DNA of 28,830 nt from a virus: the IMG/VR virus record IMGVR_UViG_3300005831_000054, positions 1 to 28,830 of that record; one strand, written 5' to 3'. The first letter of the stretch is position 1, and every line of letters starts with the position of its first letter. The translations under genes were made by a program, and so were the position numbers. This document shows positions 12,369 through 28,830 of the stretch, in pieces. Under the pieces are notes generated by a model that was not told where the DNA came from, ran no database searches, and worked only from the letters and a program-made list of their open reading frames with translations.

Positions 12369-12371
12369 GGC

Positions 12372-12503: not shown

Positions 12504-12506
12504 GGG

Positions 12507-12710: not shown

Positions 12711-12713
12711 GGA

Positions 12714-15700: not shown

Positions 15701-15917
15701 GGGCGGACCAGCCAGTAATGAAATCGGCGTTGGAGGTCTTGACCAGGTACTGACCCGTAAGGCCGCCAGCGGGAACGCCAACGCCAGGGGCTCCAGTGGC
15801 GCCAGTAGGACCAGTGGGACCAGTCGGGCCGGGCAAACCTTGCGGGCCCGGGGTGCCGAGGTCGATGGTAAGGGTCGCCGGAGCGATGCCCGTGAGAGTG
15901 ACAGCAAGGGTAGACAT
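12714..15917 (-). CDS. Tail fibre / receptor-binding protein with collagen-like repeat
   Basis: 1067 aa. Residues about 21-47 are Gly-X-Y collagen-like triplets (GPTGPTGPTGATG core), which form a trimeric rod. The middle is built from fibre repeats: TYQTLAGMSSYLTT occurs twice, LPLAGG twice, and [DS]TxxATTxxV-type segments at least four times. There are also two tandem copies of a Thr/Gly-rich unit around TGATxSGST and AAGST. A HVHGTD element resembles the His-x-His iron-binding motif of T4 gp37-type fibres. The last 200 residues are non-repetitive, beta-rich and end VWWSRS, and probably form the receptor-binding jelly-roll/LamG-like head. Start is TAAGATG-coupled to the 105-aa gene. Confidence 0.8.
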   Translation of the reverse strand: MSTLAVTLTGIAPATLTIDLGTPGPQGLPGPTGPTGPTGATGAPGVGVPAGGLTGQYLVKTSNADFITGWSALSLNYLPLAGGAMDVDATITLEDATLDRVSEVAGFGFSVSSASNLNLKTNVLFDRVSVANVTSATSIIPTGVEFPDLTLQTSAGISAATAAATYQTLAGMSSYLTTSAAASTYYLQTNPAGFITAAALTGYATEGWVASELANYATLSYVNSSFYGINNPDGFIGDAPSDGSQYARKNAAWEVVTTTPDFISSVTAPLAVASGNLTVNLSAYAPLASPAFTGTPTAPTPSPGTNSTRIATTEWVKDFDYAPTNSPHFTGNPQSVTPSTGDNDTSIATTAFVKDQGYITSSALSPYLLSSTAASTYQTLAGMSSYLTTADAATTYLPLAGGTLTGKLLLPTSTTSLAPLYIYPGNDPTTANTGDIWVDSSGVIRYSLSGTSEFIAYRSWVSSGFATKASPDLTGNVTITTNSTSPALVITQDGTGDVVQFKDATSDTTYSFINASGKVTTIPAVTASAGFNIPHGTAPTTFVDGDIWTTTGGLFARINGGNRQFATLSDGQSFSGNNTFTGPTLTFGNTTAASTIGIGTGATISGSTRTISIGTGSAAGSTNNINIGGGSGTITTTLNGTTNFNGPITGAINNITLGNGTAASTFNLFTGATVSGSTKAVAIATGGAAGSTTTLTIGNTTGSTTTLQGTTNGVTAAADTNSVALATTAFVVGQAGSATPLVNGTASVGTSLRYARADHVHGTDTTRAALNSPSFTGTPTLPTGTIATTQTAGNNTTAVATTAFVTAAVPGFATTAEIASPSSTTKVLSPFDAVRMIINRATFDTQNSSPTFATSGAGATAYKLTNDRVIDVGTPNVGVAGYGQMIYDTTQSSWGVMAAKRGDNAFTQDFSKRIFMSGTHTFTAMGDANTTAYCMLGGRNTITTGDPSNTNLRGIGWKLVGGGTALKLITFGWNGSAVVNTETTSSFTPVVNQSFDWLIMTAPNPANPATSYCYLYVNDALVATGINCPADATVNFNYFFQSFESTASMATRLDAYSFPVKVWWSRS
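13795..14165 (-). repeat. Tandem imperfect repeat inside the fibre gene
   Basis: Two copies (about 13795-13945 and 14010-14165) encode matching units TGATVSGST...TGGAAGST...GSTTTLQGTT and TGATISGST...TGSAAGST...TITTTLNGTT. Probably an internal duplication that lengthens the fibre shaft. Confidence 0.5.
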
Positions 15918-15918
15918 C

Positions 15919-16236
15919 TTAGGAGAGGGTCACCTGACCGATGACATTGAGGCGAAGGGTCACAGTGTAGAAGACGCTGCCGCCAAGGGAAAAGCGGATG
16001 TCCCAGCTGGCCGTGCCGGTCGACCAGGCTGAGGTGTCGTCGGGGTAGATGCCCGTGAAGGATAGGCCATCGTTAGCAATCGTGATGACCAGATCGTAAG
16101 AGCCGTGGGCCGAGTCGACGATGGTCGAGGTTACAGTCGTGCCGAGAAGGTTAGCCGGGGCGCCGGCCGAGGGGGCGTAAACGCAAGAGGCCGCGAAGGA
16201 CGTACCGCGCTTGAAGGTGACAGTGGTGCAGCTCAT
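15919..16236 (-). CDS. Baseplate/fibre-adaptor-like beta protein (105 aa)
   Basis: Starts MSCTTVTFKRGTSFAASCVY. All-beta pattern with an immunoglobulin/BppU-N-like layout: an initial strand with KRGTSF, a GAPANLLGTTVTSTIVDSAH segment, then TGIYPDDTSAWSTGTASWDIRFSL and a final strand VFYTVTLRLNV. In other phages, such small beta sandwiches link the baseplate to the fibre, which fits its place directly before the fibre gene. One of the six start-linked TTGCCAAT repeats lies upstream (16248-16264). The family assignment is tentative. Confidence 0.6.
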   Translation of the reverse strand: MSCTTVTFKRGTSFAASCVYAPSAGAPANLLGTTVTSTIVDSAHGSYDLVITIANDGLSFTGIYPDDTSAWSTGTASWDIRFSLGGSVFYTVTLRLNVIGQVTLS

Positions 16237-16247
16237 CGGGTCTTAAT

Positions 16248-16264
16248 CCTGCGAAGATTGGCAA
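16248..16264 (-). repeat. Start-linked repeat, copy A (TTGCCAAT-CTTC-GCAGG)
   Basis: Non-coding here. Followed by ATTAAGACCCG and then the ATG at 16236 (11 nt away). Confidence 0.7.
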
Positions 16265-16281
16265 GGGGGTGGGGGGAGGGG

Positions 16282-16779
16282 TCAGGGCAAGACGATTGAT
16301 GTGACAGGGTCACTAAATGCCGTAGCCTGTGCCACTCCGTTAAAGTTACCGCTTTCAGCTGTAATAGCAAAGTTCACGAATGAGCCGGAAGGAATGTCAA
16401 AGGCTGTCACTATTCCCCCGACTACTCCGAGGTTAAAATCGTCGAGGTCAACCCGAGCATAATCGAAGTTATCAGGGTCACCAAAAGCCCACGGCCCAAA
16501 GGTAAATCCACCATCCCCTGAAAGGTTAAACTGCGCTTGTAAATTGAACGGCTGCCAACACCTAAAAAGGTTCGCGCCAGTAGCGGAGGTTGCCAGCGTT
16601 ACTCCTGCCAGGGCATAGTCCGACGATGTTCCTGAAGGCTCATTGTATCGATACGCAGGCGTAAAGGTAACAGGCGAACGGAAATAACCCCAAGACGGCT
16701 GGCCTCCAGAGATAAGCGGAGTCTCGGCAGCGCTACCAACAACAAGGAAAGCGTTGGTATATACTGGGGGCGTCGGCAT
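16282..16779 (-). CDS. Hypothetical tail-region protein (165 aa)
   Basis: Not recognised. Beta-rich and low in charge: PVTFTPAYRYNEPSGTSSDY, FNLQAQFNLSGDGGFTFGPW, FVNFAITAESGNFN. The many Gly/Ser/Thr and aromatic residues are typical of distal tail or baseplate structural proteins. No signal or membrane segment. ATG at 16779, six nucleotides after the upstream stop. Confidence 0.65.
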   Translation of the reverse strand: MPTPPVYTNAFLVVGSAAETPLISGGQPSWGYFRSPVTFTPAYRYNEPSGTSSDYALAGVTLATSATGANLFRCWQPFNLQAQFNLSGDGGFTFGPWAFGDPDNFDYARVDLDDFNLGVVGGIVTAFDIPSGSFVNFAITAESGNFNGVAQATAFSDPVTSIVLP

Positions 16780-16785
16780 AGCGGC

Positions 16786-17376
16786 TTAGACGCTGGCGAA
16801 GTAATAGCGCGCAGTGAGGCTTGGAACCTTAATGCGATCCGTCCAGAGTGACTTGGTCACATCCTGCCAGACAGTAATCTCTTTGGTCGTCGGGTTTTGG
16901 TAGGCCGTAGCGAGGATGATATAGGAGTCGATGTCGCCAGTCGTCGGCATAAAGCTAAGAGAGTCCACAACAGGATAAGAAGGGCTTGCGCTGACGTGGG
17001 CCGTGTTGTCGTCAGGGTAGCGTGGGATTGTTGAGTCGTAGCCCAGTTTCATAACGATATAAGAGTAACCTGTCGTAACATTGAAATTCCACTTGTATAA
17101 AACAAACTCGTAATCGCTCACCGGCATATGTGTCATAAACCAAGCCGAGCCGCCAATCATCGGGTCGAGGTTGTTGACTAGACCAGGCTGGACTGTGAAC
17201 CAGTAACTTAAGTTACCGCCGACAACCTTCGGGCCGAGGTCGGTGACTTCAAACGGGTGCTTCGGCCTTGGCTCCGCCGGGTACGCGCACCAATCCGACC
17301 AAGCCTTCTGAATCGAAAAATTGTAGCCCTGGCTTGAGGCCGTGAAGGTATAGCCTGACCCGGGTTGAATGCTCAT
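16786..17376 (-). CDS. Hypothetical tail-region protein (196 aa)
   Basis: Not recognised. Starts MSIQPGSGYTFTASSQGYNF. Beta-rich with many aromatics (LSYWFTVQPG, YEFVLYKWNFNVTTGYSYIV, RYYFASV at the C-terminus). Resembles baseplate or adhesion structural modules in composition only. It lies between two other unrecognised tail genes in the stretch where distal tail and baseplate proteins are expected. Confidence 0.65.
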   Translation of the reverse strand: MSIQPGSGYTFTASSQGYNFSIQKAWSDWCAYPAEPRPKHPFEVTDLGPKVVGGNLSYWFTVQPGLVNNLDPMIGGSAWFMTHMPVSDYEFVLYKWNFNVTTGYSYIVMKLGYDSTIPRYPDDNTAHVSASPSYPVVDSLSFMPTTGDIDSYIILATAYQNPTTKEITVWQDVTKSLWTDRIKVPSLTARYYFASV

Positions 17377-17379
17377 CGC

Positions 17380-18243
17380 TTAGATGTTGATATAAACGTC
17401 AAGCGGCCAGCCTTCAGGAGAATAGCGGATTTCGTACATAACTTTATAGAGCGAGCCGAATTCCTCGACGTTGACTTGCGAAAGGAGATTCTTGTTTCCG
17501 TAGGTGGCCGTACCAGTCGGGCCCCACGCGGGGATCAGATTGAAGATGCCCCACGAACCCGTTGAGGTAGCCGTGCCAAGCAGGGCGTAGAGGGCTTGAA
17601 CATAGGCCTGAGAAGTCGTGTAGATCGTGCCCGAGTAGGTAGTCGTGCGGGCAAGGTACTGGGTCTTCCCGTAAAGGTCAGGATAGCCAGGGTCGACAAA
17701 ACCGATGAAGCGGCCGCCGGCGCCCGTCTCGAAGCACGCGCCGTTGTAGCCTACGGAGGAAGGTACGACCACGGGCTTCTGGGTGACGACGTTAAGCACA
17801 GTTACGGGAGGCCCAAGTGGCGAGTCAGTGTAAGCGCCGCCAAAGTCAGCAGGCAGGCCGGCGAGAGGAACGCCGCCGTAGCCAGTTGCCGCGGTGAAGA
17901 AGTTAGGGTGGGTCGTGATGTTCTCGGCAGTCAGGCCGTTCGCGACAGCCGTGTTGGCCTGAGTCATCACGCCGCCGCCGATGGTCGGGTCGATGCCAAC
18001 GTAGTCGACCTTGATGGTCATATATTCAAGCGCGTCGGTCGTGTGCGAAGACTTGTGGGCCTTCGTGTATGCGTACGGGGCTTGAGGGAACGCCGTGCCG
18101 CGGATTGAGATTGGGATGCCGGCGGTCTTGTCGACGCGGTAGGTGGCCGTGCCGGTGATGAGGCCGAAGCCGTCGGACTGGAAAGTGAAGCCAGGTTGCA
18201 GGACTTCGGAGCTCAGGACATTGCCTGTGGAGATAAGGGCCAT
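17380..18243 (-). CDS. Hypothetical distal tail/baseplate protein (287 aa)
   Basis: First gene after the tape-measure candidate, the position of distal tail (Dit)-like proteins in siphoviruses, but I see no Dit or Tal signature. The product starts MALISTGNVLSSEVLQPGFT and is rich in Gly, Thr and Tyr. A strand-rich C-terminus includes SLYKVMYEIRYSPEGWPLDVYINI split over two strands. The central region (residues about 115-200) is Pro/Gly-rich. Structural tail role inferred from position and composition. Confidence 0.6.
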   Translation of the reverse strand: MALISTGNVLSSEVLQPGFTFQSDGFGLITGTATYRVDKTAGIPISIRGTAFPQAPYAYTKAHKSSHTTDALEYMTIKVDYVGIDPTIGGGVMTQANTAVANGLTAENITTHPNFFTAATGYGGVPLAGLPADFGGAYTDSPLGPPVTVLNVVTQKPVVVPSSVGYNGACFETGAGGRFIGFVDPGYPDLYGKTQYLARTTTYSGTIYTTSQAYVQALYALLGTATSTGSWGIFNLIPAWGPTGTATYGNKNLLSQVNVEEFGSLYKVMYEIRYSPEGWPLDVYINI

Positions 18244-18247
18244 AAGA

Positions 18248-19027
18248 TTAAACGAGACCAGCCTTTTGCATGCTGACTGGGACGCGTTCGGTAAAGGGGT
18301 TGGGTACGCCGCCGCCGTTATTGATGTTCATATTCTGGAACAGGACGTCGCGGATCTCTTCGAGCAGCTCGTTCTGTTGAGTCATCTTTTCCATCACTGG
18401 GTTGGCGCCGACGCCGATCACGCTGCCAAAGCCCTCTGGGCCCTTGAACGTGCCGGCCTTTTGCTGGTCTGCGGCAAGTGATGCTTCGATTTCTTTACCT
18501 TTATCTGTGCTGTTAAAGTATTCCATGGCCATCCTCTGAACGTCTTTATTCTTGGATAGACTGTCGATGGTTTCACTGCCCTCGCGCAATTTGCGAACGT
18601 ACTCTTCGGGAAGATTAAAGTCCTTAAACTCTCCATCCTTATTCTCTAGAATTTGTTTGGCTACGTTTGCTCGGCCTGATTCGACAAGGTTCTTTTCATC
18701 TTCCATTTCCTTTTTTCGTTTAAAATAAGCGGCCGCACGCTTCTCTTCAGTGCTAACTAGTTTGCTGTCGCCAGCAGCCAAGAGGTCTAAGCCTTCCTTT
18801 GCCATTCGTTTTGTCTCTTCCATGGACTTAGAAAGAAATCCCATGATGCCCTGAATGAGAACCATAGGAGCGGCAAAGCCTAGGAAGATGTCTTTAAAGC
18901 CGGTTGAAAACTTCTTTTGAACGTCCTCAATCTGCTTGTTGAATCCGACCACAGCCGAGGACGCCTTGTTCATAGCCTGGGGGACGTCGGAGGTAGTCTT
19001 AATGTTTACTGTGAGGTCTTGGGCCAT
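18248..19027 (-). CDS. Tape measure protein candidate (unusually short)
   Basis: 259 aa. The N-terminus (MAQDLTVNIKTTSDVPQAMN) and the following helix with KASSAVVGFNKQIEDVQKKF match the look of tape-measure N-termini. A hydrophobic segment at about 48-66 (IFLGFAAPMVLIQGIMGFL) and long charged helices up to residue 190 follow. The C-terminus carries another helix (VMEKMTQQNELLEEIRDVLF). Tape measures usually exceed 500 residues in siphoviruses, so the tail would be very short (about 0.15 nm per residue gives under 40 nm). It follows a chaperone-like gene, as expected. Start-linked repeat copy B lies upstream. Confidence 0.6.
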   Translation of the reverse strand: MAQDLTVNIKTTSDVPQAMNKASSAVVGFNKQIEDVQKKFSTGFKDIFLGFAAPMVLIQGIMGFLSKSMEETKRMAKEGLDLLAAGDSKLVSTEEKRAAAYFKRKKEMEDEKNLVESGRANVAKQILENKDGEFKDFNLPEEYVRKLREGSETIDSLSKNKDVQRMAMEYFNSTDKGKEIEASLAADQQKAGTFKGPEGFGSVIGVGANPVMEKMTQQNELLEEIRDVLFQNMNINNGGGVPNPFTERVPVSMQKAGLV

Positions 19028-19038
19028 GTAGGTTTCCT

Positions 19039-19617
19039 TTAACCTGCTGGATTGGCAACGGAGGCCTTCGCCGCTTCGGCGTCTTTAAGCAGCTCTTCCT
19101 CGATGTAGGCCTCTTCCTCGGGCGACATGATCGCCACGTCCGCACCCTTGCGCATAGCAAAGGCCGCATTCAGCCAAATGGCCTGACACTCCGGCATCTC
19201 CCACGCCCGCTTCTCGTCAATGTTGTTGGCAATTAGGTTGGCGATAATGCTCTGCACCCAGGGCATGTTGCTCTTCCCGCCGGTCTTCTTGTTGTTCTGT
19301 TCCCAGAATTTCGGCCAGTTGTTTAAAAGGACGTAGCCGGCGAAGGCGTTTAAGAGGCTTTCAAACTTTTCAGGCCTTCGGACTAGGCTCATTATTCGCA
19401 TTTTATCCCAAAAGCCAATATGTCCAAGCGTTTCCTCAGCGCACACTTGGCAAGCAAAGATGAGATCGGCGGGAGTCACGCCGCGAGAGCCCGTGACCAG
19501 GGGCGAGTCAAACGCCATCAGACGCACGCGGTACTTGAGGCACCAAGGGTAGAGCGTTCGGCCTAGCAGCTTGAACGGGGCCGGGTCTACATGACTATTC
19601 AGGAAGCGGCGGTCCAC
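19039..19617 (-). CDS. Probable tail assembly chaperone
   Basis: 192 aa from a GTG at 19617; an in-frame TAG lies just upstream and no ATG is near. Helical, with a PADLIFACQVCAEE segment, an aromatic VLLNNWPKFWEQ segment and an acidic C-terminus (MSPEEEAYIEEELLKDAEAA). It lies between the tube-like protein and the tape-measure candidate, where gpG/GT-type chaperones sit. I see no -1 frameshift extension. Its last codons (SVANPAG, stop) are encoded by start-linked repeat copy B. Identity rests mainly on gene order. Confidence 0.5.
   Translation of the reverse strand: MDRRFLNSHVDPAPFKLLGRTLYPWCLKYRVRLMAFDSPLVTGSRGVTPADLIFACQVCAEETLGHIGFWDKMRIMSLVRRPEKFESLLNAFAGYVLLNNWPKFWEQNNKKTGGKSNMPWVQSIIANLIANNIDEKRAWEMPECQAIWLNAAFAMRKGADVAIMSPEEEAYIEEELLKDAEAAKASVANPAG
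19043..19058 (-). repeat. Start-linked repeat, copy B (TTGCCAAT-CCA-GCAGG)
   Basis: Lies inside the 3' end of the chaperone-like gene (encodes VANPAG) with a 3-nt rather than 4-nt spacer. Fifteen nucleotides later comes the ATG of the tape-measure candidate. Confidence 0.65.
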
Positions 19618-19650
19618 CCCTTTAGACTAACACCCCAACGGGGGAGTCAA

Positions 19651-20031
19651 TCAATAGGTGATGTCTTCAAACGACTCGGCAGTCACTGACACACTGACGA
19701 ACCCTTTTGAACTGCCGCGGTCGTCGACCTTGGTGATCACTCCTGAGAAGCTGACCGAAGCCACGCCGGCAGGATAAGCCGATGCGGTCTTAGCCGTGAA
19801 AGTTAAAGCGGCGCCGAGCTGCGGAACGCTGGTGGCCTTGGCCACGCCCTCGATGGTAATTTCCGAGCGGCGGTCGTCATAGCGAGCCGTGATCGTGCGG
19901 CCGCTTTCGTCAACGACCATGCCGGTGTTGTTGAAATTCGACGCCACAGAGTAGCTTTGAATTACGAGGTTGGCCTGTTGGCCGCTCCCAATTCCGTAAA
20001 GGCAGACTACGCCGGTATTGACTTCGCTCAT
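19651..20031 (-). CDS. Tail tube (major tail) protein candidate
   Basis: 126 aa, all-beta: VVCLYGIGSGQQANLVIQSY, TGMVVDESGRTITARYDDRR, SEITIEGVAKAT, VASVSFSGVITKVDDRGSSK, SVSVTAESF. The repeated strands with a central DDRRSEITIEG turn are typical of small tail-tube/major tail proteins of siphoviruses. Position after the tail-terminator-like gene and before the chaperone-like gene agrees. Start-linked repeat copy C immediately precedes the ATG, fitting a need for high expression. Confidence 0.6.
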   Translation of the reverse strand: MSEVNTGVVCLYGIGSGQQANLVIQSYSVASNFNNTGMVVDESGRTITARYDDRRSEITIEGVAKATSVPQLGAALTFTAKTASAYPAGVASVSFSGVITKVDDRGSSKGFVSVSVTAESFEDITY

Positions 20032-20037
20032 CTTAAA

Positions 20038-20054
20038 CCTGCTCTAATTGGCAA
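20038..20054 (-). repeat. Start-linked repeat, copy C (TTGCCAAT-TAGA-GCAGG)
   Basis: Intergenic. The site is followed by TTTAAG and the ATG at 20031. AGG is placed like a weak Shine-Dalgarno. An in-frame TAG inside the spacer shows that the repeat is not conserved for its peptide. Confidence 0.75.
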
Positions 20055-20057
20055 CCC

Positions 20058-20492
20058 TTAGACAGGGGGCAGGACAGTGAGGACATCATAGGCAAACGAG
20101 GTCGCCCAGGAGCGCTCGTCGATGCCCTCGTCTTCGGCCCTCGGGCTAACGTCATAGCAGGTCGCGTCTCCAGTGGCCACGAAGGCCGCTTGGATTGAGG
20201 CAAGGTCGTTCATATTGCCAGACAGGGATGCGCACCTGGCACGATGCTGGGCGAGCGTCGTGTCATCGGCGTTCGAGAAGAGGGTGATGCGGACCGAGCA
20301 GCTGAAGTTGCCAAGGCCTTCGGGGAGGTCGGACGGCGGGCTCGCCGAGTCGCAGAGGACCACGGCCTTGGGCAGGGTCTGCGTGGCGCTGCTGTCGCCC
20401 GTCAGTAATGCCACGCCGGCAAGGCCAGCCTGGGCGGAGAGATATGTCGCGAGAGTAGACTCAACGATATGCCGAATTGAACGTGTGCCCAT
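20058..20492 (-). CDS. Tail terminator / minor tail U-like protein candidate
   Basis: 144 aa, starting MGTRSIRHIVESTLATYLSA. The layout (an N-terminal helix, then AVVLCDSASPPSDLPEGLGN, a strand SCSVRITLFSNADD, a helix LAQHRARCASLSGNM and a C-terminal strand TSFAYDVLTVL) matches tail-terminator/lambda U-type alpha-beta proteins. Those cap the tail tube and join it to the head. It lies between the neck protein and the tube candidate. The leader is AT-rich (AACCAAAAATAAACCC) without SD. Confidence 0.55.
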   Translation of the reverse strand: MGTRSIRHIVESTLATYLSAQAGLAGVALLTGDSSATQTLPKAVVLCDSASPPSDLPEGLGNFSCSVRITLFSNADDTTLAQHRARCASLSGNMNDLASIQAAFVATGDATCYDVSPRAEDEGIDERSWATSFAYDVLTVLPPV

Positions 20493-20496
20493 GGGT

Positions 20497-21459
20497 TTAT
20501 TTTTGGTTAAATTTGTTGACCGGCTTTCGCATGCGATAGCGAAGCATTGAGGGCATTTGCTTGACGCGGTTGCCGTAGACGAGGCCGAGCGTGTCGGCTT
20601 GGTCGGCGATGCCGTTGATGTTTCCGATAGGGTTAGTCACAGAGACCTCCGCGATCTTGTCGGTGAAGGCGCTCTTATTGTAGCCAGGTACTCCAGAATG
20701 CAAGGTCACCCATGTGGCTTTCCGTAGCTCGGCGCCGGGTTCGCCCTGCTGGCCGTTGTTGTCCTTCGGCCGTGGGAGACTTGCCAGCGCCTTGGCCCAG
20801 CCAGACTTGACCATCCCGACCATCTTCTGGCGCTTTAGAATGTAGTCGTTTAGCTCGCCCTTGTCTTCGACGAGCAGCTTGGCCGAGACAGCCTTCTGGC
20901 CTTTACTGATGCGACCGCCGAAGCGACCTTTGACCTGGTCATGGATTGACCGCAGGTTGGTGACATACCCCTGCGTTCCGTACTCGTTCTTTACGGGGGT
21001 TGCCCGGTTGAGGAAATTCTTGGCCTTGGCAAAGGCTCGTGCCTTGTCGGTATCCTGCACAATCTTTGACAGAATGTTCTTACTGCTGATTTGACTGAGC
21101 GCCTTGCCCCCAGTTGTCAGACGGGTAAACGCCCCGATGTCGTTAGCCTTAACCGCAAAGGCAATCTGGTTGATGATAAGGCCAACGGCCGAGCGGTTGG
21201 TCGAGTCGTTTGCCGCGACGAAGATTTTGGAGATGTCGCCGGCTACGGCTTGGAGACCTGCATTGTGCGCTGCGTTGCTCAGGCCGTTGCCTCCGCCCTT
21301 GGTCATGGGAGGGGTAAACTTAGCCGCGTCCTGACAGGCCAACATGGCTTGCTCGAGGACGGCGTCCCGCATCGTGATCTGCATGCCAGCCGCAAACTGA
21401 CGACAGGACTCCACGAATTGAGCCAGGGACTTTGGCTCGATGGAGACCTTGGCCGGCAT
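20497..21459 (-). CDS. Neck / minor tail Z-like protein (320 aa)
   Basis: Starts MPAKVSIEPKSLAQFVESCR. The start is fixed by a TAATG overlap with the preceding gene (21457-21461). Helical N-terminus, a TPPMTKGGGNGLSNAAHNAG loop, Lys/Arg-rich middle (HDQVKGRFGGRISKGQKAVS) and a C-terminus rich in basic residues (MLRYRMRKPVNKFNQK). Gene order (head closure, this gene, tail terminator) matches HK97 gp10-like/gpZ minor tail proteins that bind DNA or the connector. Assignment from position and basic composition. Confidence 0.5.
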   Translation of the reverse strand: MPAKVSIEPKSLAQFVESCRQFAAGMQITMRDAVLEQAMLACQDAAKFTPPMTKGGGNGLSNAAHNAGLQAVAGDISKIFVAANDSTNRSAVGLIINQIAFAVKANDIGAFTRLTTGGKALSQISSKNILSKIVQDTDKARAFAKAKNFLNRATPVKNEYGTQGYVTNLRSIHDQVKGRFGGRISKGQKAVSAKLLVEDKGELNDYILKRQKMVGMVKSGWAKALASLPRPKDNNGQQGEPGAELRKATWVTLHSGVPGYNKSAFTDKIAEVSVTNPIGNINGIADQADTLGLVYGNRVKQMPSMLRYRMRKPVNKFNQK

Positions 21460-21836
21460 TACTGGTTGTCGTCGATGACGATGAGCGTGACCCACGCCGA
21501 GCCGGGCTTGTAGGTCTGGCTGGTAATGCGGACATTATTCCCGCCGGCGACAATCTTCTTACCTTGGGCAAGCGATGGGATGACGGCGCCTCCCGTGATA
21601 ATGGCCGTAGACGCCCCCGTAGAGCCGTCTGGCAGGGTCCAGGAGGCCGTTGCGGCGGGGAGCCTGACACTATACTGGGTCCGCTCCATGTACCCCCCTG
21701 CTTCGAGGACAGTCTGGATGGCAGGGTCGGAGATAAGGCAGGAGAAGGTAATCGCCCCAGAGTTAGCCGAGCCGGCCACGGGGAAGTCGGCCACCATCTC
21801 CTTCGCGTCTGGGAGGAATTCAGCAAAGAGGCTCAT
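21459..21836 (-). CDS. Head-closure or head-tail adaptor protein candidate
   Basis: 125 aa, starting MSLFAEFLPDAKEMVADFPV. Beta-rich with a small N-terminal helix; includes NSGAITFSCLISD, YSVRLPAATASWTL and a terminal strand WVTLIVIDDNQ. First gene after the capsid terminator and before the neck gene, the place of head-closure or stopper proteins. Sequence running upstream in frame is an Arg-rich artefact that crosses the terminator. Start-linked repeat copy D lies 6 nt before the ATG, so the gene probably has its own expression signal. Confidence 0.55.
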   Translation of the reverse strand: MSLFAEFLPDAKEMVADFPVAGSANSGAITFSCLISDPAIQTVLEAGGYMERTQYSVRLPAATASWTLPDGSTGASTAIITGGAVIPSLAQGKKIVAGGNNVRITSQTYKPGSAWVTLIVIDDNQ

Positions 21837-21842
21837 TCTAAA

Positions 21843-21859
21843 CCTGCGACCATTGGCAA
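21843..21859 (-). repeat. Start-linked repeat, copy D (TTGCCAAT-GGTC-GCAGG)
   Basis: Lies between the major capsid terminator and the head-closure ATG at 21836 (6 nt, TTTAGA). Because it follows a strong terminator, downstream genes need either read-through or a new promoter near here. Confidence 0.75.
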
Positions 21860-21867
21860 ACAGGCAC

Positions 21868-21894
21868 AAAAAAAGGGCCCCTTTCGGAGCCCTT
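21868..21894 (-). terminator. Rho-independent terminator after the major capsid gene
   Basis: In transcript sense: stem AAGGGCTCC / GGGGCCCTT (9 pairs including one G-T), a GAAA tetraloop, then seven T. It begins 19 nt after the capsid stop codon. A textbook intrinsic terminator, probably a partial one that raises capsid mRNA relative to the tail genes. Confidence 0.92.
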
Positions 21895-21913
21895 CGTTTT
21901 CTCGTCAGACCGC

Positions 21914-22792
21914 TTAGGCGGCGGTGACGTAGCGAACAGCGCTCGTTCCGCGGCCCTTGTTGGCGCCGATGAGGATCTGAGCGATGCAGCGGATGTTGCC
22001 CGTTTCGGCCTGACCGACGAGCACCTGGACGGAGAGACCAGACTCGGCAGTGGCGACGCTGGAATTGAAGCCAGCGATTTCGGACATAGGGACGCCCGTT
22101 GCGACGAGGAGCGAATCCGGGCCCATGGCCACGCCCGCGAGATTCTCGATGGCAGGGATTTGGTTCCACTGGTAGATGTCCATGCCGGCGACCTGACCGA
22201 TAGAGCCGGAGGTCACGACAGCGTTGGCACCAGGGTTGAGGGAGCCGTAGATCTTAGCGTCGTTGCGGAGACCCTTGAGGTAGCCGTTGCCCACGAGGAA
22301 CGAGCGGGGTTCGCCGGCCTTAGCGCCGTCGAGGAGGAACTGAGCCTGAACCACGTCGTCATAACCGAAATCATTTAGAGCGACGATTTCTTCGGTGGCG
22401 AAGTTGGCGGTCGTGAAAACGTCGCCGATTTCGAGCCAGCACTTGTCGACGATGGCCTGAGCAGCGGTCTTCGCGTAAGCGTTGATGAGGTACTGCATGC
22501 CGTACTCCTGGATGTCGAGGGGGGAGAATTCGTCGACGTACTTGAAGTGTTTGAGGGTCACGGAGCTGTTGCTCATCGTGGCGCCGTCAACGTCCGCAAG
22601 GGTGTTGGTCGTCTTGTTGAATTCCGAAGCGGTGCCGGCGCCCATGATCGGGACGAAGACAGTCTTACCAGCGCGGCCGACAGAGGCGGACAGGTTGGTC
22701 GAGATGTTGTTGAGGATGGGCAGCTTGCCGGCGACAGTCTGGACGATGTAGTCAGACAGGACAGCCGGAGCGGTAGGGAGGACAGTAGCCAT
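21914..22792 (-). CDS. Major capsid protein (HK97 fold)
   Basis: 292 aa, ATG start. Recognisable capsid features: an N-terminal arm (ATVLPTAPAVLSDYIVQTVA), FVPIMGAGTASEF, an E-loop-like stretch, a spine-helix region (NAYAKTAAQAIVDKCWLEIG), FLVGNGYLKGLRNDAKIYGS, the domain A segment VAGMDIYQWNQIPA, and a C-terminal QVLVGQAETGNIRCIAQILI. Typical of N4-gp56/P22-like or other HK97-fold coats of about 300 residues. It sits after the scaffold and before the terminator. Not a proteolysis-delta fusion: the scaffold is encoded separately. No SD before the ATG. Confidence 0.85.
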   Translation of the reverse strand: MATVLPTAPAVLSDYIVQTVAGKLPILNNISTNLSASVGRAGKTVFVPIMGAGTASEFNKTTNTLADVDGATMSNSSVTLKHFKYVDEFSPLDIQEYGMQYLINAYAKTAAQAIVDKCWLEIGDVFTTANFATEEIVALNDFGYDDVVQAQFLLDGAKAGEPRSFLVGNGYLKGLRNDAKIYGSLNPGANAVVTSGSIGQVAGMDIYQWNQIPAIENLAGVAMGPDSLLVATGVPMSEIAGFNSSVATAESGLSVQVLVGQAETGNIRCIAQILIGANKGRGTSAVRYVTAA

Positions 22793-22828
22793 AGGTATGT
22801 TTTAGGTAGGGTGAGGGTTGGGGGAAAG

Positions 22829-23257
22829 TTACTTGATGATCTCGGCCTTGTGGGCGTTGAAGAAGGCGATGCGGGCCTGACCGGCAGGAAGCGCCATGTA
22901 GGCGGTCTTCACTTCGTCGGAGCTCATCTTCTTGGGCGAGTCGCCTTTCGGCAGCTCGACGGGCTCGGTACCGAAGGACGCGACAATCTTCGCGGCTTCC
23001 TTCGAGGCGCTGGCCTTGACGGCTTCGAGCTCGGCGACCTTAGCCAGGGACTCGGCAAGGGCGGCTTCGGAAACCTTGAGGGCTTCGGAGAGGGAGGCGA
23101 TGGAAGTCTCGCGGGTAGCGGCTTCAACCTTGAGGGACTCGAGCTCGGCGGTGGCGCCGACAGTGAGTTTCTCGACAGTGGCACGGAGGTCGTCACGTTC
23201 GGCGGTGAGGCCGGTGAGCGAAGCCGCGGCGGAGACGAGCTGTTCTTCGATGGTCAT
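22829..23257 (-). CDS. Possible internally started scaffold protein (142 aa)
   Basis: Same frame as the HAD-scaffold gene, starting at Met146. The ATG at 23257 has repeat copy E nine nucleotides upstream, the same arrangement as five other gene starts. The product would be a pure coiled-coil scaffold, comparable to lambda Nu3 nested in gene C. The evidence is the repeat and the domain boundary. The second initiation is not shown experimentally. Confidence 0.5.
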   Translation of the reverse strand: MTIEEQLVSAAASLTGLTAERDDLRATVEKLTVGATAELESLKVEAATRETSIASLSEALKVSEAALAESLAKVAELEAVKASASKEAAKIVASFGTEPVELPKGDSPKKMSSDEVKTAYMALPAGQARIAFFNAHKAEIIK

Positions 23258-23692
23258 AGTCTTGAACCTGCGAGAATTGGCAACCTTCGCTTCCGGCGCT
23301 TCAGGGATGGGAACCTCCTCGACGTCATCTTCCTCGACCATCTCGGGAATGGCATCGGGGTCCATAACCTCAACGCCGAGGGCGGCGACGGCGTCACGGG
23401 TGTCGGAGCGGTTGTCGATAAACATGTCGACCGGGCGGCCGGCATCGAGCTCGGCCTTGATGACGCCAGACTTGAAAGCAGGGGCTTCGGCGCCGGAGTC
23501 ATTCATGATCAGGGCGTCGTACTCGAAGTCGACGGCGGCGAGGTCGGCGATGGTCTTCTCGCGGTCGGACTCGGGGCGGTTCGTCAAGACGACGACTTCC
23601 TCGGCGGTCTCGTCGATGTAATCGATGACGCGCTTGACGGGCTGGCCGTCCTTAAGGATGGTATCGTCAATGTCGGTGAAGATGCGGGGCAT
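22829..23692 (-). CDS. HAD-phosphatase / scaffold fusion protein
   Basis: 287 aa. Residues 1-112 are a HAD-superfamily phosphatase: motif I DIDDT (7-11), motif II VVVLTNR (33-39), Lys74 and motif IV FIDNRSDTRD (91-100). An acidic Pro/Glu linker covers 113-138. Residues 146-287 are a scaffold-like coiled coil (MTIEEQLVSAAASLTGLTAE and on) with a Lys-rich C-terminus (ARIAFFNAHKAEIIK) that would bind the coat. The position between prohead protease and coat supports a scaffold role. Start-linked repeat copy E sits inside the gene just before Met146, so two proteins may be made. What the HAD domain does is unknown; 5' or 3' phosphate trimming of nucleic acid is one possibility. Confidence 0.75.
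   Translation of the reverse strand: MPRIFTDIDDTILKDGQPVKRVIDYIDETAEEVVVLTNRPESDREKTIADLAAVDFEYDALIMNDSGAEAPAFKSGVIKAELDAGRPVDMFIDNRSDTRDAVAALGVEVMDPDAIPEMVEEDDVEEVPIPEAPEAKVANSRRFKTMTIEEQLVSAAASLTGLTAERDDLRATVEKLTVGATAELESLKVEAATRETSIASLSEALKVSEAALAESLAKVAELEAVKASASKEAAKIVASFGTEPVELPKGDSPKKMSSDEVKTAYMALPAGQARIAFFNAHKAEIIK
23267..23283 (-). repeat. Start-linked repeat, copy E (TTGCCAAT-TCTC-GCAGG)
   Basis: Inside the HAD-scaffold gene (encodes VANSRRFKT) and nine nucleotides before the in-frame ATG at 23257. Confidence 0.7.
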
Positions 23693-23693
23693 T

Positions 23694-24488
23694 TTAGAAA
23701 GAGGCTAATGCTTTGTTGAAGGAGTCGGCGAGGCCAGTGACCAAGCCCTGGGCGGCAGCCTGCTTGCCGGAGAAGACCTGACCGCGGAGGGCGGAGTCTG
23801 CGACCAGCGTGCGCTTGGAGCGGATGGCGGCTTTAAAGTCTTCGTGAATCGAGTCGACGCCAGACTGGAGGTCGGCGACTTGTTCGTCAGAGAGAGACGT
23901 GCCTTCGATGCCGGCGCCTTTTAGGGGGGAGCCAGTCGACTTGATGACTACCATGCGGACGCCAGAGTCTTCGTAGAGTTTGGACATATCGGGGACGGCC
24001 ATGTAGACGCCCACGCTGCCGACAGTAGCCGAAGGGGAGGCGACGACGCGGTCGGCCTGAGAGCCAAGCCAGTAAGCAGCCGAAGCCATCTCGGAGTCAG
24101 TGTAAGCCATGGTCGGCTTCTCGAGGTCGCGAATCTTGTTGGCCAGCTCTTCGACGCCCGTGACAGTGCCGCCAGGGGATGAGACGTTGAAGGCAATCTT
24201 CTCAACCGCAGGGTCGGAAGCGAAGAGGTCGACGGCCATTGACAGGTCGTTGACGTCGACGGCGCCCATCATCTTCTCAATTGGGCTTAGGTTCTTACCG
24301 ATCACGCCAGCAATCGGGATAACGCCCACGCCGTTCTGAACGTAGGGCACGGGGGCCACGCCGAAGAATTGGGCGAGCATGTCAGTGAAGCCGAATTTCT
24401 CGGCCATGACTGAGAAGTCTTGGGCTTTGGCCGGGTCGATGAGCATTGGCTCACGGCCCTTGAGGGCATGGGATAAGAATCGGGACAT
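23694..24488 (-). CDS. S49-family prohead protease (SppA/lambda C-like)
   Basis: 264 aa, starting MSRFLSHALKGREPMLIDPA, one nucleotide after the portal stop. Core S49 features: IPIAGVIGKNLSP (57-69), NVSSPGGTVTG (oxyanion/nucleophile region, 101-111), catalytic Ser136 in DSEMASAAYWLGSQADRVVA, SPSATVGSVGVY (151-162) and the Lys190 region (KSTGSPLKGAG) that would complete the Ser-Lys dyad. These proteases cleave scaffold and head proteins during maturation. Order portal, protease, scaffold, coat is standard for lambda-type heads. No scaffold domain of its own: that is in the next gene. Confidence 0.88.
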   Translation of the reverse strand: MSRFLSHALKGREPMLIDPAKAQDFSVMAEKFGFTDMLAQFFGVAPVPYVQNGVGVIPIAGVIGKNLSPIEKMMGAVDVNDLSMAVDLFASDPAVEKIAFNVSSPGGTVTGVEELANKIRDLEKPTMAYTDSEMASAAYWLGSQADRVVASPSATVGSVGVYMAVPDMSKLYEDSGVRMVVIKSTGSPLKGAGIEGTSLSDEQVADLQSGVDSIHEDFKAAIRSKRTLVADSALRGQVFSGKQAAAQGLVTGLADSFNKALASF

Positions 24489-24489
24489 G

Positions 24490-26001
24490 TTATTTGTTAA
24501 GGTTGGTACCGGGTAGGGGTTCAGCCTGGTCGACTTGTGCGACTGTGCCAAGGGGAGTGTTAGTCGGACGGAAGAGCAGCTCGAATGGGATGCCGTACGT
24601 CTTCGAGAGGTTCTGGATGTAGGCCATATCCTTGGCCCGTAATTCCATTTCAGTGGAGAAGTCGAGGCCGCGCTGCCCGTAGAGCTCGCTCACGGACATC
24701 AGGCCCATCTCAATGTCGGCGCGATCGTTGGCCGCGTCACGGCCAGCGTCGACAGTCACGCTCTTCGGGGTCGTCCAAGAGGTAGACCACCAGCGTGGGT
24801 CGTCAGGCAATTCGCCCTTAGCGATGCCGTCGGCAATTATGAATTCCCAAGTTGGTTGGCAGAAGGTCTCCAGAAGCACATTTTGATATTTACCGAAAAC
24901 CCGTGCGGCCTTGGCGGTCACCAACCTTACCCCAGCTCCGCCGGCCGAAGTTACGTCCTTTACGAATTCGTAAGGGAGGATTGAGCAAATGTCTTTTTCG
25001 AGCGCCGCAAGGAATCCTACGAAGGTGCTGTTGGGGCGTTTTGACTCAAAACTTTCAAAAGAGTCTGAGCTCTCGAGCACGATGGCCTTTCCGCCCATCT
25101 GGCTTGCAAGGTTTTCGGCCGAGTTATTGTTAGACGAAATTTCAGAGGCCGCGTCTTCGTCGAGGAAGCCTGAGCCCTTCTTGATTACACGGGTCACGTC
25201 CCCGTTGTCTTTCACTGCGCGCCGCTCGAGCTCGAGGATTTCTTTGACGTCCTGAACTCCGCACAGGCTGGACTGAAGCACTGGAACGCCGCGAGAGCCG
25301 GAGGCCGTTTCCATGTCGACGATGTGCATGACCGACTGGGCCTCGACCTTGCGGGAGGAGCCGTCGGCTTGGTAAAGGTTGTAGTAGCGGACTTCGTTAT
25401 ACTTGCCGAAGCCAATGCCGTCCCAGCAATCTTCGGGGGTGTCGGCGTCGGTAGGATCGCCACATCGGTGAGCCTCGACGATTTGGATTTGAGCGCGGTC
25501 GCCGTTAACGACCTTGATGGCAAACGCATCGCCGTCACGGACCATTGCCCGAACGAGGATGGACTGGCACTGGGCAAACGACTTACCGGATACGTCAATG
25601 CGCTTAGACTCGCGGGCGAAGTATTCTTCGTACTGACGAGCCACGGCCGGGTCGGTTGCGTGGGACTGCGGCTTGATGCCGTCGCCCGAAACGTAGATGA
25701 CCAGGTCGTTCAGGATGCTACGGAAAAGGGAGGACTCGCGTTCGGCCCATCGGCACTTCTTGACCATCTCGTTGCGGTCCCAAGGGGACATGTCGCGGCG
25801 GAGGTCGTCGGGCTGCGGGGCGTAGATGACCCGGCGGGCGTAAGTCTGGACAGTGCTGCCCCACTGGTTCCCGCTGTATTGGTTATTAAAACCAGAGCGA
25901 GAGTTGCCGGCGGCCTGTGCCTTCGGCGTACCCTTGCGGGTAGTCGCCTTGGCTGGCTTCGTGCGTAGGCTAACAGTCGGGACTTTCTTGCGGGGGGCCA
26001 T
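24490..26001 (-). CDS. Portal protein (lambda family)
   Basis: 503 aa. Lambda/HK97-type portal features: a basic N-terminus, then DRNEMVKKCRWAERESSLFR, FRSILNDLVIYVSGDGIKP, a SILVRAMVRDGDAFAIKVVN wing region, FGKYNEVRYYNLYQADG, and MHIVDMETASGSRGVPVLQS followed by VQDVKEILELERRAVKDNGD, the stem helix region. C-terminal RAKDMAYIQNLSKTYGIPFE continues in the clip/barrel part. It forms the dodecameric DNA gate at the capsid vertex. It lies between gpW-like and protease genes, as in lambda. Normal length. Confidence 0.9.
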   Translation of the reverse strand: MAPRKKVPTVSLRTKPAKATTRKGTPKAQAAGNSRSGFNNQYSGNQWGSTVQTYARRVIYAPQPDDLRRDMSPWDRNEMVKKCRWAERESSLFRSILNDLVIYVSGDGIKPQSHATDPAVARQYEEYFARESKRIDVSGKSFAQCQSILVRAMVRDGDAFAIKVVNGDRAQIQIVEAHRCGDPTDADTPEDCWDGIGFGKYNEVRYYNLYQADGSSRKVEAQSVMHIVDMETASGSRGVPVLQSSLCGVQDVKEILELERRAVKDNGDVTRVIKKGSGFLDEDAASEISSNNNSAENLASQMGGKAIVLESSDSFESFESKRPNSTFVGFLAALEKDICSILPYEFVKDVTSAGGAGVRLVTAKAARVFGKYQNVLLETFCQPTWEFIIADGIAKGELPDDPRWWSTSWTTPKSVTVDAGRDAANDRADIEMGLMSVSELYGQRGLDFSTEMELRAKDMAYIQNLSKTYGIPFELLFRPTNTPLGTVAQVDQAEPLPGTNLNK

Positions 26002-26004
26002 AGA

Positions 26005-26259
26005 TTATTCGAAGCGATTGTCCCAGCGCGTGTTGATCATCGTACGGCGACGGCCATAGGTCGACGGGTCGAGACGGCTTAGGGCGAACATGGCTTCGTT
26101 AAGCATTTCTTTCGGGGGAAGGGCAAAAGCCTTCGTCGCCGAAGAGCCGGAATCGGCGTAGCTCATAAGGGTTTTGCCGTCCATGATGAGGGCCAAAGCC
26201 TTCGCCTTGAGGTCAAGCAATTCGCATTCAGTCAGGCCGATAAAGATTCCTTGAGCCAT
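26005..26259 (-). CDS. gpW-like head-tail joining protein
   Basis: 84 aa, starting MAQGIFIGLTECELLDLKAK. Two helices around residues 11-30 and 50-65 flank a short beta hairpin (MSYADSGSSATKAFAL), the gpW layout. The size and position between large terminase and portal match lambda W. A basic C-terminus (STYGRRRTMINTRWDNRFE) fits joining-protein function. The start at 26259 follows the 37-aa gene's TAA by one nucleotide. An in-frame extension to 26355 is rejected because it reads through the repeat and overlaps that small gene. Confidence 0.7.
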   Translation of the reverse strand: MAQGIFIGLTECELLDLKAKALALIMDGKTLMSYADSGSSATKAFALPPKEMLNEAMFALSRLDPSTYGRRRTMINTRWDNRFE

Positions 26260-26260
26260 T

Positions 26261-26374
26261 TTAACTGCGGGAATTGGCAACGATAGGGGCGGCGACGCCG
26301 ATGTCCACGCCGCGAGTCTCTTCCTTCCCGCAACCATCGGCGCCGCCGCTTGCATTCAGTCTCCCCGGGTTCAT
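26261..26374 (-). CDS. 37-aa small protein between large terminase and gpW-like gene
   Basis: Hidden small gene. Its ATG overlaps the terminase TGA as ATGA (26371-26374), and its TAA lies one nucleotide before the next ATG (26259). It reads MNPGRLNASGGADGCGKEET and RGVDIGVAAPIVANSRS. The C-terminal VANSRS is encoded by start-linked repeat copy F. Gly-rich and polar, no fold recognisable. It may be a true peptide or a coupling ORF that carries the ribosome to the gpW-like start. Confidence 0.45.
   Translation of the reverse strand: MNPGRLNASGGADGCGKEETRGVDIGVAAPIVANSRS
26265..26280 (-). repeat. Start-linked repeat, copy F (TTGCCAAT-TCCC-GCAG)
   Basis: Followed by TTAAA and the ATG at 26259. 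The second G of GCAGG is missing here. Overlaps the 3' end of the 37-aa gene. Confidence 0.65.
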
Positions 26375-28158
26375 GTGGAAGGCAAGTCGGTTTCGGTTGT
26401 TTCCTTGCCGACGATGCCCCAACGGACGGCTGCCAGCAAGCCAAGCAGCTCGCAGTCGAAGGCGTGATTGTCCTTCTTGCCCTGGGGAAGAATCCATTGG
26501 GGCTTACCCGACCGACGATCGCGGACGCGAACCTCGGCGTTCATTTGGTCGACGTAATCTTGGCCGGCATCGAGGGCATACGAAAAGGACTTTCTTGAGC
26601 GCAAGCCGTGCATCAAATCTTTACCCCCCAAATTCGACCAGACCAGGAGCACGGCGCGAGCCTGAAGACCGGGGACCATAATGGTCTGCTTATCCGAATA
26701 GAATCGGCGGGTCTGCTTCCCGTCCTTGGCCGTTACGCTGAAGTCTTCGTTACCAGAGCCCTTCGCACACTTCCAGCCACGCATCGCCGTCTGCCGATAG
26801 ACGTCTTGGGCTTGGTCTCCGGCATCGACCATTACAAGGGCCGGATGTACCGCGTGGAGTTTGACGAAGGCCTCGACGTCTTGCCAGGTGTCAATCTTGG
26901 CGAAGGCCTTGAGACGGCTATGCCCGGTCTTACTCCATCGGCGGACTACTCCAAAAAAGTGTCCTCGTTGTACGTCGATTCCAGCCGTTCGGAAAGGGAA
27001 TGAGCCATCGGGTGCTCCCTCTCGTTCGACAACCTTGCCCTTGGGAGTGATGACCGACTCGCCTTCCCAGTCGTCGGCGCAGTTATAGTTGGCGGCCGCG
27101 GCGATGTTCACGATCTCGCCGCCCTCTTCGGCCCATGCCAAAGCGAGCCTCTTCTGTTTGAAGATGCGGCGCTGTTCTTCGTCTCCGTAAATCTCGGCTT
27201 GTTCTTTGCTTTTAATCATCATCACGGCCAGCTCGCCCCAGCTCATTGACGCAAGACTGTTCCAGTGGAGGCCGACGTAACCGCTGTTAGTGCTCGACGC
27301 TGTAGCCACAAAGGCGCCGCGGCGGTTCGCTTCCAAGCGCGTGGCGTTGTTGTCGGGCAGTCGTTCCTGGCACGATGCGCACTCGTAAGTCGTGCCGTTC
27401 GTAACCTTGAGCAAATCCCATGAGCCAGTCAGTTTGGCGTCGTCTGGAAAACGAACCTGCTCCCAGACATAGGGCTGGAGCGCTTCACATTTTGGGCATC
27501 GAAAGTTCCAGTCGCGTTGGTCGGTCGTCTCATGGAGCTGATGGATCTCCTGACCGGCACGGCCGCCCTGACTCATAAACACTCGCTTACCCATCCAACC
27601 GAACGCCGTCACTCGAGCGCTTAATTCGGCAAGGTGGCCGGGAGGTGCTTGCCAACATTCGTCGGCAATCGTGAAGCGAAGCGATAGGCGTTGAAGGTTG
27701 GTCTCATTGTGGAGGCCGCGACAATAGAGCGTCATGCGGTCGAAGTCGGCAGTCGTCGAGCGGTCCAAGTCGTCGGCAGATAGCCGAGCCTTGACGGGCG
27801 GGCAGTTGTTCCAGACTGGGCGGAGGTAGCGCAGGGCAAAGTCCTTTGCCTCGCTGTCCGTAGCCTGCAGAAGCATGGTAGGTCCGGGCGTGTTCGCAAT
27901 GATGTGGCAGGTAAGCAGCCGAGCCAGGAGCGATTTGCCCGACTGGATGCTGGCGATAATGGTCGCCATGCGGACCTCGGGGTCGGCGATGATACGCAAG
28001 GCCTCCGCGATCCACGGCGTACGCTCCGACCGAAACGGCCCGGGCATCGGCGAGTCAGGGATGGCCAAAACATTCTCTTCGAGCCACTCGACGACGTCGC
28101 CCGAGTCAGAGGGACGCAAGACGTCTCGGCCGATTCGGAGCAGGTCGGCCTTATTCAT
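26371..28158 (-). CDS. terL: Terminase large subunit, GpA family
   Basis: 595 aa. ATPase: a Walker A-like SIQSGKS (70-76) and Walker B FTIADE (162-167). A zinc-ribbon pair CPKC (221-224) and CASC (260-263), characteristic of GpA-type large terminases, follows. Nuclease acidic residues appear as AGIDVQRG (Asp395), MVDAGDQ (Asp445) and DNHAFDCE (Asp563/Asp568). It cuts concatemers and pumps DNA through the portal. The GpA family suggests cos-type packaging, though this does not prove it. Start overlaps the small subunit stop by 8 nt. Confidence 0.94.
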   Translation of the reverse strand: MNKADLLRIGRDVLRPSDSGDVVEWLEENVLAIPDSPMPGPFRSERTPWIAEALRIIADPEVRMATIIASIQSGKSLLARLLTCHIIANTPGPTMLLQATDSEAKDFALRYLRPVWNNCPPVKARLSADDLDRSTTADFDRMTLYCRGLHNETNLQRLSLRFTIADECWQAPPGHLAELSARVTAFGWMGKRVFMSQGGRAGQEIHQLHETTDQRDWNFRCPKCEALQPYVWEQVRFPDDAKLTGSWDLLKVTNGTTYECASCQERLPDNNATRLEANRRGAFVATASSTNSGYVGLHWNSLASMSWGELAVMMIKSKEQAEIYGDEEQRRIFKQKRLALAWAEEGGEIVNIAAAANYNCADDWEGESVITPKGKVVEREGAPDGSFPFRTAGIDVQRGHFFGVVRRWSKTGHSRLKAFAKIDTWQDVEAFVKLHAVHPALVMVDAGDQAQDVYRQTAMRGWKCAKGSGNEDFSVTAKDGKQTRRFYSDKQTIMVPGLQARAVLLVWSNLGGKDLMHGLRSRKSFSYALDAGQDYVDQMNAEVRVRDRRSGKPQWILPQGKKDNHAFDCELLGLLAAVRWGIVGKETTETDLPST

Positions 28159-28708
28159 CGCTTGCGGATAGGTCGGCCTTCGTCCTGCGTATCCAGACCT
28201 CGAGCGCCTTCACGGCCTTGGCAGGATTCTCGGGGTTACACCCTTCGGCCACATCCAGCGCTAACTTGTCGAGGCGGTTGACGACCTCGCTCATCAGTTG
28301 CCGCATCGCCTCGCCGGCTTCCTTCGAGCTGATGTAGTCTTTAGCCAGGATCAAGCGGCGCTCTTGCTCTTCCTCGAGGGCGACCTGCGTCTTGAGCGAT
28401 TGGTTGTAAGCGGTTTGGTACTTCCCTTGATTGGGGTCGCCGCCATCCATCGATGCAAGCCAGACGCCGCGAGCCCGGGTGACCAGCGTGCGGTGCTCGG
28501 CGATCGTATCGGCCAGCGTGCCGTCGTCGAGGTTGGCCGGCGCGGCCTTCGGCGCCTTCGCCGTGCGGGCTACGTCTCGAGCTGCACGCCACGCCAGGGC
28601 GGACTCGATGCTATCCGTAGGCATTCCCTCGCGCTTGAGCACGGACACTCGTTGAGCGGTGATGTTCAACGCGGTTCCGATCTCGAGGTTGGTGAGTCTA
28701 TGCGTCAT
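28151..28708 (-). CDS. terS: Terminase small subunit (Nu1-like)
   Basis: 185 aa. The N-terminal helix-turn-helix NLEIGTALNITAQRVSVLKR (residues 7-26) with a KREG wing is Nu1-like and would bind the packaging site. An Ala/Lys linker, then two long helices (residues about 67-120, AYNQSLKTQVALEEEQERRL region), then a helical C-terminus VWIRRTKADLSASDE that would contact the large subunit. Position directly before the large subunit gene, overlapping by 8 nt, is diagnostic. The recognition site is probably the region 28709-28830. Confidence 0.85.
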   Translation of the reverse strand: MTHRLTNLEIGTALNITAQRVSVLKREGMPTDSIESALAWRAARDVARTAKAPKAAPANLDDGTLADTIAEHRTLVTRARGVWLASMDGGDPNQGKYQTAYNQSLKTQVALEEEQERRLILAKDYISSKEAGEAMRQLMSEVVNRLDKLALDVAEGCNPENPAKAVKALEVWIRRTKADLSASDE

Positions 28709-28764
28709 GGCCGAGTGCTGGAGTTCCCCCGTTTGCTGTTTTGGTCAAATCCGTCATTTGCCCC

Positions 28765-28793
28765 CGTATAAAAGAAGGGCAGGTGTCGCCCAA
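28765..28793 (-). promoter_or_regulatory. Possible promoter for the terminase genes
   Basis: On the minus strand TTGGGC and TATACG are separated by 17 nt, a weak sigma70-like match (3 of 6 and 4 of 6). The surrounding 28709-28830 is non-coding and has T-runs. A 4-bp hairpin GGGC/GCCC lies in the spacer. This is the only non-coding stretch in front of the packaging genes and could also hold the cos/pac site. Confidence 0.3.
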
Positions 28794-28830
28794 AAAAATA
28801 CATTTTGGAACATTACACTTTTTTGAGCCG

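Follow-up and report, generated by a model that had tools for sequence, protein, structure and literature searches.

A predicted HAD phosphatase fused to a phage scaffold, with a candidate internal start for the free scaffold behind a repeated gene-start element

In a virus record of 28,830 bases, analysed here at its full length (the window), a HAD phosphatase domain and a coiled-coil scaffold share a single reading frame between the genes for the head maturation protease and the capsid protein. The locus raises the question of whether this frame gives one protein or two, and of what a phosphatase might do on a scaffold.

Domain organization and head-gene neighborhood

The coordinates that a sequence-only reading of the window had given for this frame were correct; the strand, which it had left unstated, is minus (Table 1). 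In the order of transcription, the fusion gene follows the genes for the small terminase, large terminase, a gpW-like protein, a lambda-family portal protein, and an S49 protease, and precedes that for the major capsid protein, the names of the small terminase and gpW-like genes being given from place and size only. The earlier statement that the prohead protease is a separate S49 gene upstream was borne out by profile matches to Peptidase_S49 and phrog_53. Capsid proteins of four relatives (G001, G006, G003, and G010) were 23 to 36% identical to that of the window, while their portal, protease, or scaffold proteins were more alike, as would follow from an exchange of the capsid gene.

Table 1. 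Positions of features in the window
Feature	Position	Strand	Remark
Copy of the element before the gpW-like gene (ATG at 26259)	26260..26280	-	
Lambda-family portal protein	24490..26001	-	
S49 head maturation protease, separate gene	23694..24488	-	Peptidase_S49 4.2e-23; phrog_53 2.5e-53
HAD-scaffold fusion ORF, 287 aa	22829..23692	-	Fusion retained in relatives down to 41% identity
HAD phosphatase domain, residues 1-114	23351..23692	-	D7, D9, T37, K74, D93 invariant
Acidic disordered linker, residues 115-145	23258..23350	-	pLDDT <50 for 119-143
Boundary copy of the element, TTGCCAAT-N4-GCAGG-TTCAAGA	23260..23283	-	Synonymous constraint
Candidate internal start codon, Met146	23255..23257	-	Homologous Met starts stand-alone scaffolds L056, L060, L064, L069
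Free scaffold ORF, 142 aa, long helix and C-terminal helices (residues 146-287)	22829..23257	-	
Major capsid protein	21914..22792	-	phrog_283 6e-11
Intrinsic-terminator-like hairpin 3' of capsid gene, right before next element copy	21872..21895	-	
Copy of the element before head-completion-like gene MSLFAEFLPD (ATG 21836; gene role guessed)	21837..21859	-	
Copy of the element before gene 19651-20031	20032..20054	-	
Copy of the element before gene 18248-19027	19036..19058	-	
Copy of the element before gene 15919-16236	16241..16264	-	

The HAD motifs named in the sequence-only reading were present (DIDDT at residues 7 to 11, LTNR at 36 to 39, and FIDNRSD at 91 to 97), and D7, D9, T11, T37, K74, and D93 were invariant in 16 of 16 aligned relatives with identities down to 41%. 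Under the numbering of HAD motifs I to IV, the protein contains DxDxT of motif I, the threonine or serine of motif II, the lysine of motif III, and the aspartate of motif IV; with its catalytic residues intact, the phosphatase is active-looking. An AlphaFold2 model (16 aligned relatives) contained a compact HAD domain at residues 1 to 113 (pLDDT of about 92), a linker with pLDDT below 50 at residues 119 to 143, and a long helix from residue 148. The domain edge in this model agreed with that read from the letters, and the proposed fusion of a HAD domain to a coiled-coil scaffold held, with HAD at residues 1 to 114, the linker at 115 to 145, and a helical scaffold at 146 to 287.

The best structural matches of the modeled HAD domain spanned the whole phosphatase domain of T4 polynucleotide kinase/phosphatase (Pnkp) (Z of 15.6, rmsd of 2.1 A, 113 aligned residues). 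Other HAD phosphatases also matched well (Z of 10 to 14), and the best Foldseek E-value was that of a plant vegetative storage protein, followed by Pnkp1 and T4 Pnkp. The HAD profile matched Pnkp1 at 3.4e-5, and the Pfam matches of the window's protein fell under the curated cut-offs. As modeled, the fold appears closest to that of the 3'-phosphatase domain of T4 polynucleotide kinase: the phage domain has the fold of T4 Pnkp and Pnkp1 over its whole length and their DxDxT, K, and D motifs, but differs from them in having no kinase domain, in being fused to a scaffold, and in being only 14 to 21% identical. The C-terminal part is called a scaffold because it is helical, is encoded directly before the capsid gene, and adjoins the protease. 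The related scaffold in L077 matched phrog_4866 (head scaffolding protein) at 4.5e-4, and the window's own protein had no match to phrog_4866; distant Pfam and NCBIfam matches on the coiled coil were set aside as composition-driven.

In phage lambda, the scaffold gene Nu3 is nested in frame within C, and the genes are ordered portal, protease and scaffold, capsid. This order is found in the window as well, where the scaffold ORF forms the 3' part of a longer head gene and is read in the same frame, so that the long product and the free scaffold would have a common C-terminus. An overlap between C and Nu3 is stated in the title of a reference cited by PMC8508860. The likeness to C/Nu3 drawn in the sequence-only reading stood as one of layout; as that reading had noted, the N-terminal domain differs, being a protease in lambda and a HAD phosphatase here, with S49 encoded elsewhere; a further difference is that the internal start lies behind a repeated element.

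Conservation of the domain boundary among relatives

The relatives compared were metagenome contigs, many of them close kin. After removal of duplicates by an identical 140-nt key, 72 distinct scaffold starts were retained (scaffolds without an MTIEE-like start, such as that of L054, were left out): 37 with HAD, 11 with WALWGG and HAD, 14 with WALWGG alone, 7 with no fused domain, and 3 cut at a contig edge. The strict form of the boundary element preceded 62 of these 72 starts (29 with HAD, 10 with WALWGG and HAD, 14 with WALWGG, 7 unfused, and 2 at a contig edge), and most of the 10 misses were clade-specific variants resembling other copies in the same genomes. The earlier proposal of an internal start was to be refuted, in part, by relatives that have neither the repeat at the boundary nor the internal ATG, and such relatives were not seen among them. 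Each of the 7 unfused scaffolds begins with the Met homologous to Met146 and has the element in front of it, and in the stand-alone cases the S49 stop codon lies a few codons ahead of the element and the scaffold ATG.

Removal of duplicates by an identical 180-nt key and of loci with less than 1 kb of upstream sequence left 68 distinct loci for a comparison of reading frames. HAD ran in frame and stop-free into the scaffold at 53 of 53 loci, so that the fusion suggested earlier as a thing to look for in related phages was indeed found there, and WALWGG did so at 22 of 22; 12 loci hold both modules and 5 of the 68 neither. Start-to-start lengths at the 53 HAD loci fell into eight classes, all multiples of 3. 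In the contigs read, HAD was present in a single copy per genome and always fused, contigs with WALWGG alone or with a free scaffold were without HAD, and no separate HAD gene was found in the HAD-less genomes. L041, which these filters kept out of both the 72-start and the 53-locus counts, has an interrupted HAD frame, followed by an element and a scaffold start that are both intact, and is either a case against a frame that is always intact or a sequencing error. No boundary element was recognizable in L054, the most distant fusion (41% identity).

Synonymous change was assessed in 36 sequences of at most 97% mutual identity, at same-amino-acid codons only and scaled per sequence pair. The minimum of 292 windows of codons was found at codons 141 to 147 (0.08 of expectation), next to codons 136 to 142 at 0.11, a value equal to that of an unexplained low at codons 17 to 23 (0.11). 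Codons at the boundary were conserved though partly rare (GTT in 36 of 36 sequences, with a usage of 0.19; AAT in 35 of 36, 0.22; AGG in 31 of 36, 0.07), unlike the stretch of codons 15 to 25, in which codons are mostly common. This second stretch of low synonymous change, at about 23618 to 23650 in the HAD domain, also holds a small GACGG/CCGTC inverted repeat. The element of the sister clade lies at a different frame offset from the ATG (27 nt, versus 23 or 26 nt) and encodes a different peptide; since the peptide differs between clades and the element is retained, DNA or RNA is what is kept. These sequence comparisons speak strongly for a start signal that acts at the nucleotide level within a fusion gene that is itself translated, and most likely both the HAD-scaffold fusion and a free scaffold are made. 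The start at Met146, apparent at first from the letters of one genome, is supported by a Met shared with unfused scaffolds, by the 53 intact frames, and by the constraint at codons 141 to 147.

The boundary element and its copies before other late genes

The repeat core TTGCCAATTCTCGCAGG (23283-23267) ends 9 nt short of the Met146 ATG (23257-23255), exactly where the sequence-only reading had placed a repeat copy at the domain boundary. TTGCCAAT occurred in 6 copies in the window versus 0.65 expected in shuffles, and the 24-nt form with at most 3 mismatches in 4 copies versus 0.01 expected; all 6 copies lie on the minus strand, 21 to 31 nt ahead of a gene ATG. Sequences upstream of 19 late genes were compared across 13 genomes or contigs, one of them the window. 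Wherever the gpW-like, scaffold, MSLYAEFLP, 19651-like, 18248-like, and 15919-like genes could be identified, they were preceded by the element, as such or as a clade variant, and none was present before HAD, portal, S49, or capsid starts in these 13. Its form is TTGCCAAT..GCAGG in the window's clade, TTGCCC..CCGCA in the sister clade, TTCC in G001 and G006, and TTGACC..CCAAGG in G002. Copies within one genome vary in step, before the same orthologous genes (window and L216 to L235). The rule is not strict, since in G013 (L235) one copy, that of the 19651-like gene, is at a considerable distance from the ATG. Family-wide, copies assigned to gene starts were 20 to 33 nt from the ATG, and the distance from GCAGG to the ATG was from 3 nt upward; some of the copies scored as lying elsewhere were true gene starts, the patterns used to recognize two of the genes having been too narrow.

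Several known signals were considered for the element and rejected. A distance of 20 to 33 nt is too variable for a plain Shine-Dalgarno site, for which a fixed purine-rich spacing of 5 to 9 nt is expected. By eye, a sigma-70 promoter lacked a -10 box at the right spacing, and spacing and order were unfit for sigma-54; hits of a sigma-70 consensus scan of positions 12000 to 28830 were not above shuffles. An RNA hairpin of UUGCC with GGCAA, present in G011 and to some extent in the main clade, is lost in the TTCC and TTGACC variants, which makes a linear motif more likely than an RNA hairpin.

A T-run follows the capsid gene in 13 of 13 genomes read. The terminator-like hairpin at this position in the window nearly abuts the next copy of the element, with an overlap of T-run and element in the sister clade. 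A terminator-like hairpin with an element copy immediately behind it fits a promoter role, and as a promoter the boundary copy would place scaffold and capsid in a single transcription unit; the element may alternatively be a translation signal. In either role, it would be a family-wide gene-start element of an uncharacterized kind. Apart from the element, most genomes have a conserved TTGAC-N15-TAG..T pattern around a small GC hairpin (about 19618 to 19662), upstream of a GTG at 19617, which is promoter-like but has a short spacer.

Exchange of N-terminal modules and the place of the phosphatase

Four architectures were found on one scaffold start, namely, scaffold alone, HAD, a WALWGG module, and WALWGG with HAD. 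A tree of 58 scaffolds, in which many forks are weak, required 13 changes of architecture versus a minimum of 3, and L152 and L186 have identical scaffolds with WALWGG absent from one and present in the other. WALWGG (phrog_2859), an alternative or extra N-terminal module on the same scaffold that is unrelated to HAD, was gained and lost at the scaffold N-terminus in L011, L014, L024, L077, L081, and others; its N-terminal part also occurs in proteins annotated as protease or capsid in cultured Pontimonas and Roseobacter phages. Among more distant relatives, in which proteases were named by eye from the sequence, the scaffold is free and preceded by a protease-like gene in L236 and L237; in L238 to L246, from uncultured phages, a scaffold with the C-terminal motif seen here (EQYAAITD..ER..FFNKHR) is fused to a ClpP-like protease. 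A capsid-like gene follows in most of the latter loci, which differ from the window in that the fused domain is a protease and HAD is lacking.

No match to the fusion was obtained in 50,697 records of isolated phages, and a HAD-scaffold fusion was not found in searches of the open-access literature. The only match in bacterial genomes was L154, a 28-kb contig in an Opitutae MAG and possibly a binned phage contig; it gives a weak hint of a verrucomicrobial host.

We consider it probable that this is a nested head gene with two products in one frame, the longer of which carries a phosphatase into the prohead. Translation from Met1, which adjoins the S49 stop codon, would give the 287-aa fusion, and translation from Met146, behind an element reused before five other late genes, would give the free 142-aa scaffold. 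The free scaffold would be the basic assembly tool. The fusion, presumably a minor product co-assembling with it, would enter the same scaffold lattice via the shared C-terminal part and bring in the Pnkp-type phosphatase, and the S49 protease would then clear the scaffold. Entry of HAD into the prohead is deduced from its fusion to the scaffold; once there, the phosphatase might act on DNA 3' ends or nucleotides, inside the head or delivered from it.

A disordered linker with a protease gene next to it would also suit a single primary fusion product that S49 cuts in the linker, the boundary element then being the promoter of the capsid gene and not a scaffold start. Given the hairpin after the capsid gene, such a promoter would define a scaffold-capsid unit, but this account is made improbable by the stand-alone scaffolds, which share the Met and the element with an S49 stop just upstream, and by the position of the copies assigned to gene starts, which are at most 33 nt from the ATG. 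Conservation of the boundary by shared descent and protein constraint only, with the internal start unused, might be expected where many loci are close relatives; it is hard to credit when the synonymous test was limited to same-amino-acid codons and scaled per sequence pair, when the DNA is kept under a peptide that differs between clades, and when the element recurs in the leaders of other genes.

Somewhat unlikely, though the most serious of these alternatives, is that both products are made and that the phosphatase acts in the cytoplasm or at the assembly complex and is no head cargo, the fusion only bringing it to the site of assembly. The placement of HAD inside heads is itself inferred, and HAD appears dispensable, being missing from the free-scaffold and WALWGG-only contigs read; on the other hand, the in-frame fusion at all 53 loci and the lack of a separate HAD gene in the genomes read argue that attachment to the scaffold is itself selected. 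In the preferred account, that of a nested gene with a phosphatase carried into the prohead, the scaffold would serve the phage as a means of bringing an enzyme into the head as it is built. By analogy with lambda, the layout would be the known one of C/Nu3, and the replacement of the protease by a phosphatase would be new.

A broader proposal, which we offer tentatively, is that the scaffold, also made free from an internal start, is a general cargo tag to whose N-terminus different modules can be fused for transport into the prohead (HAD phosphatase, WALWGG, the two together, or, in more distant relatives, a protease), that the phosphatase acts on genome ends in the head or is delivered into the host, and that the internal start is set by a phage-specific element for late gene starts, of an undescribed class, with a co-evolving trans factor. 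Engineered scaffold fusions are a known route for loading enzymes into phage shells. A natural scaffold-enzyme fusion with a conserved start for the free scaffold would mean that phages themselves load cargo by such a route and that modules can be exchanged at the N-terminal position of the scaffold, and it would raise the question of whether, and why, a phosphatase of the DNA-end type is part of the head.
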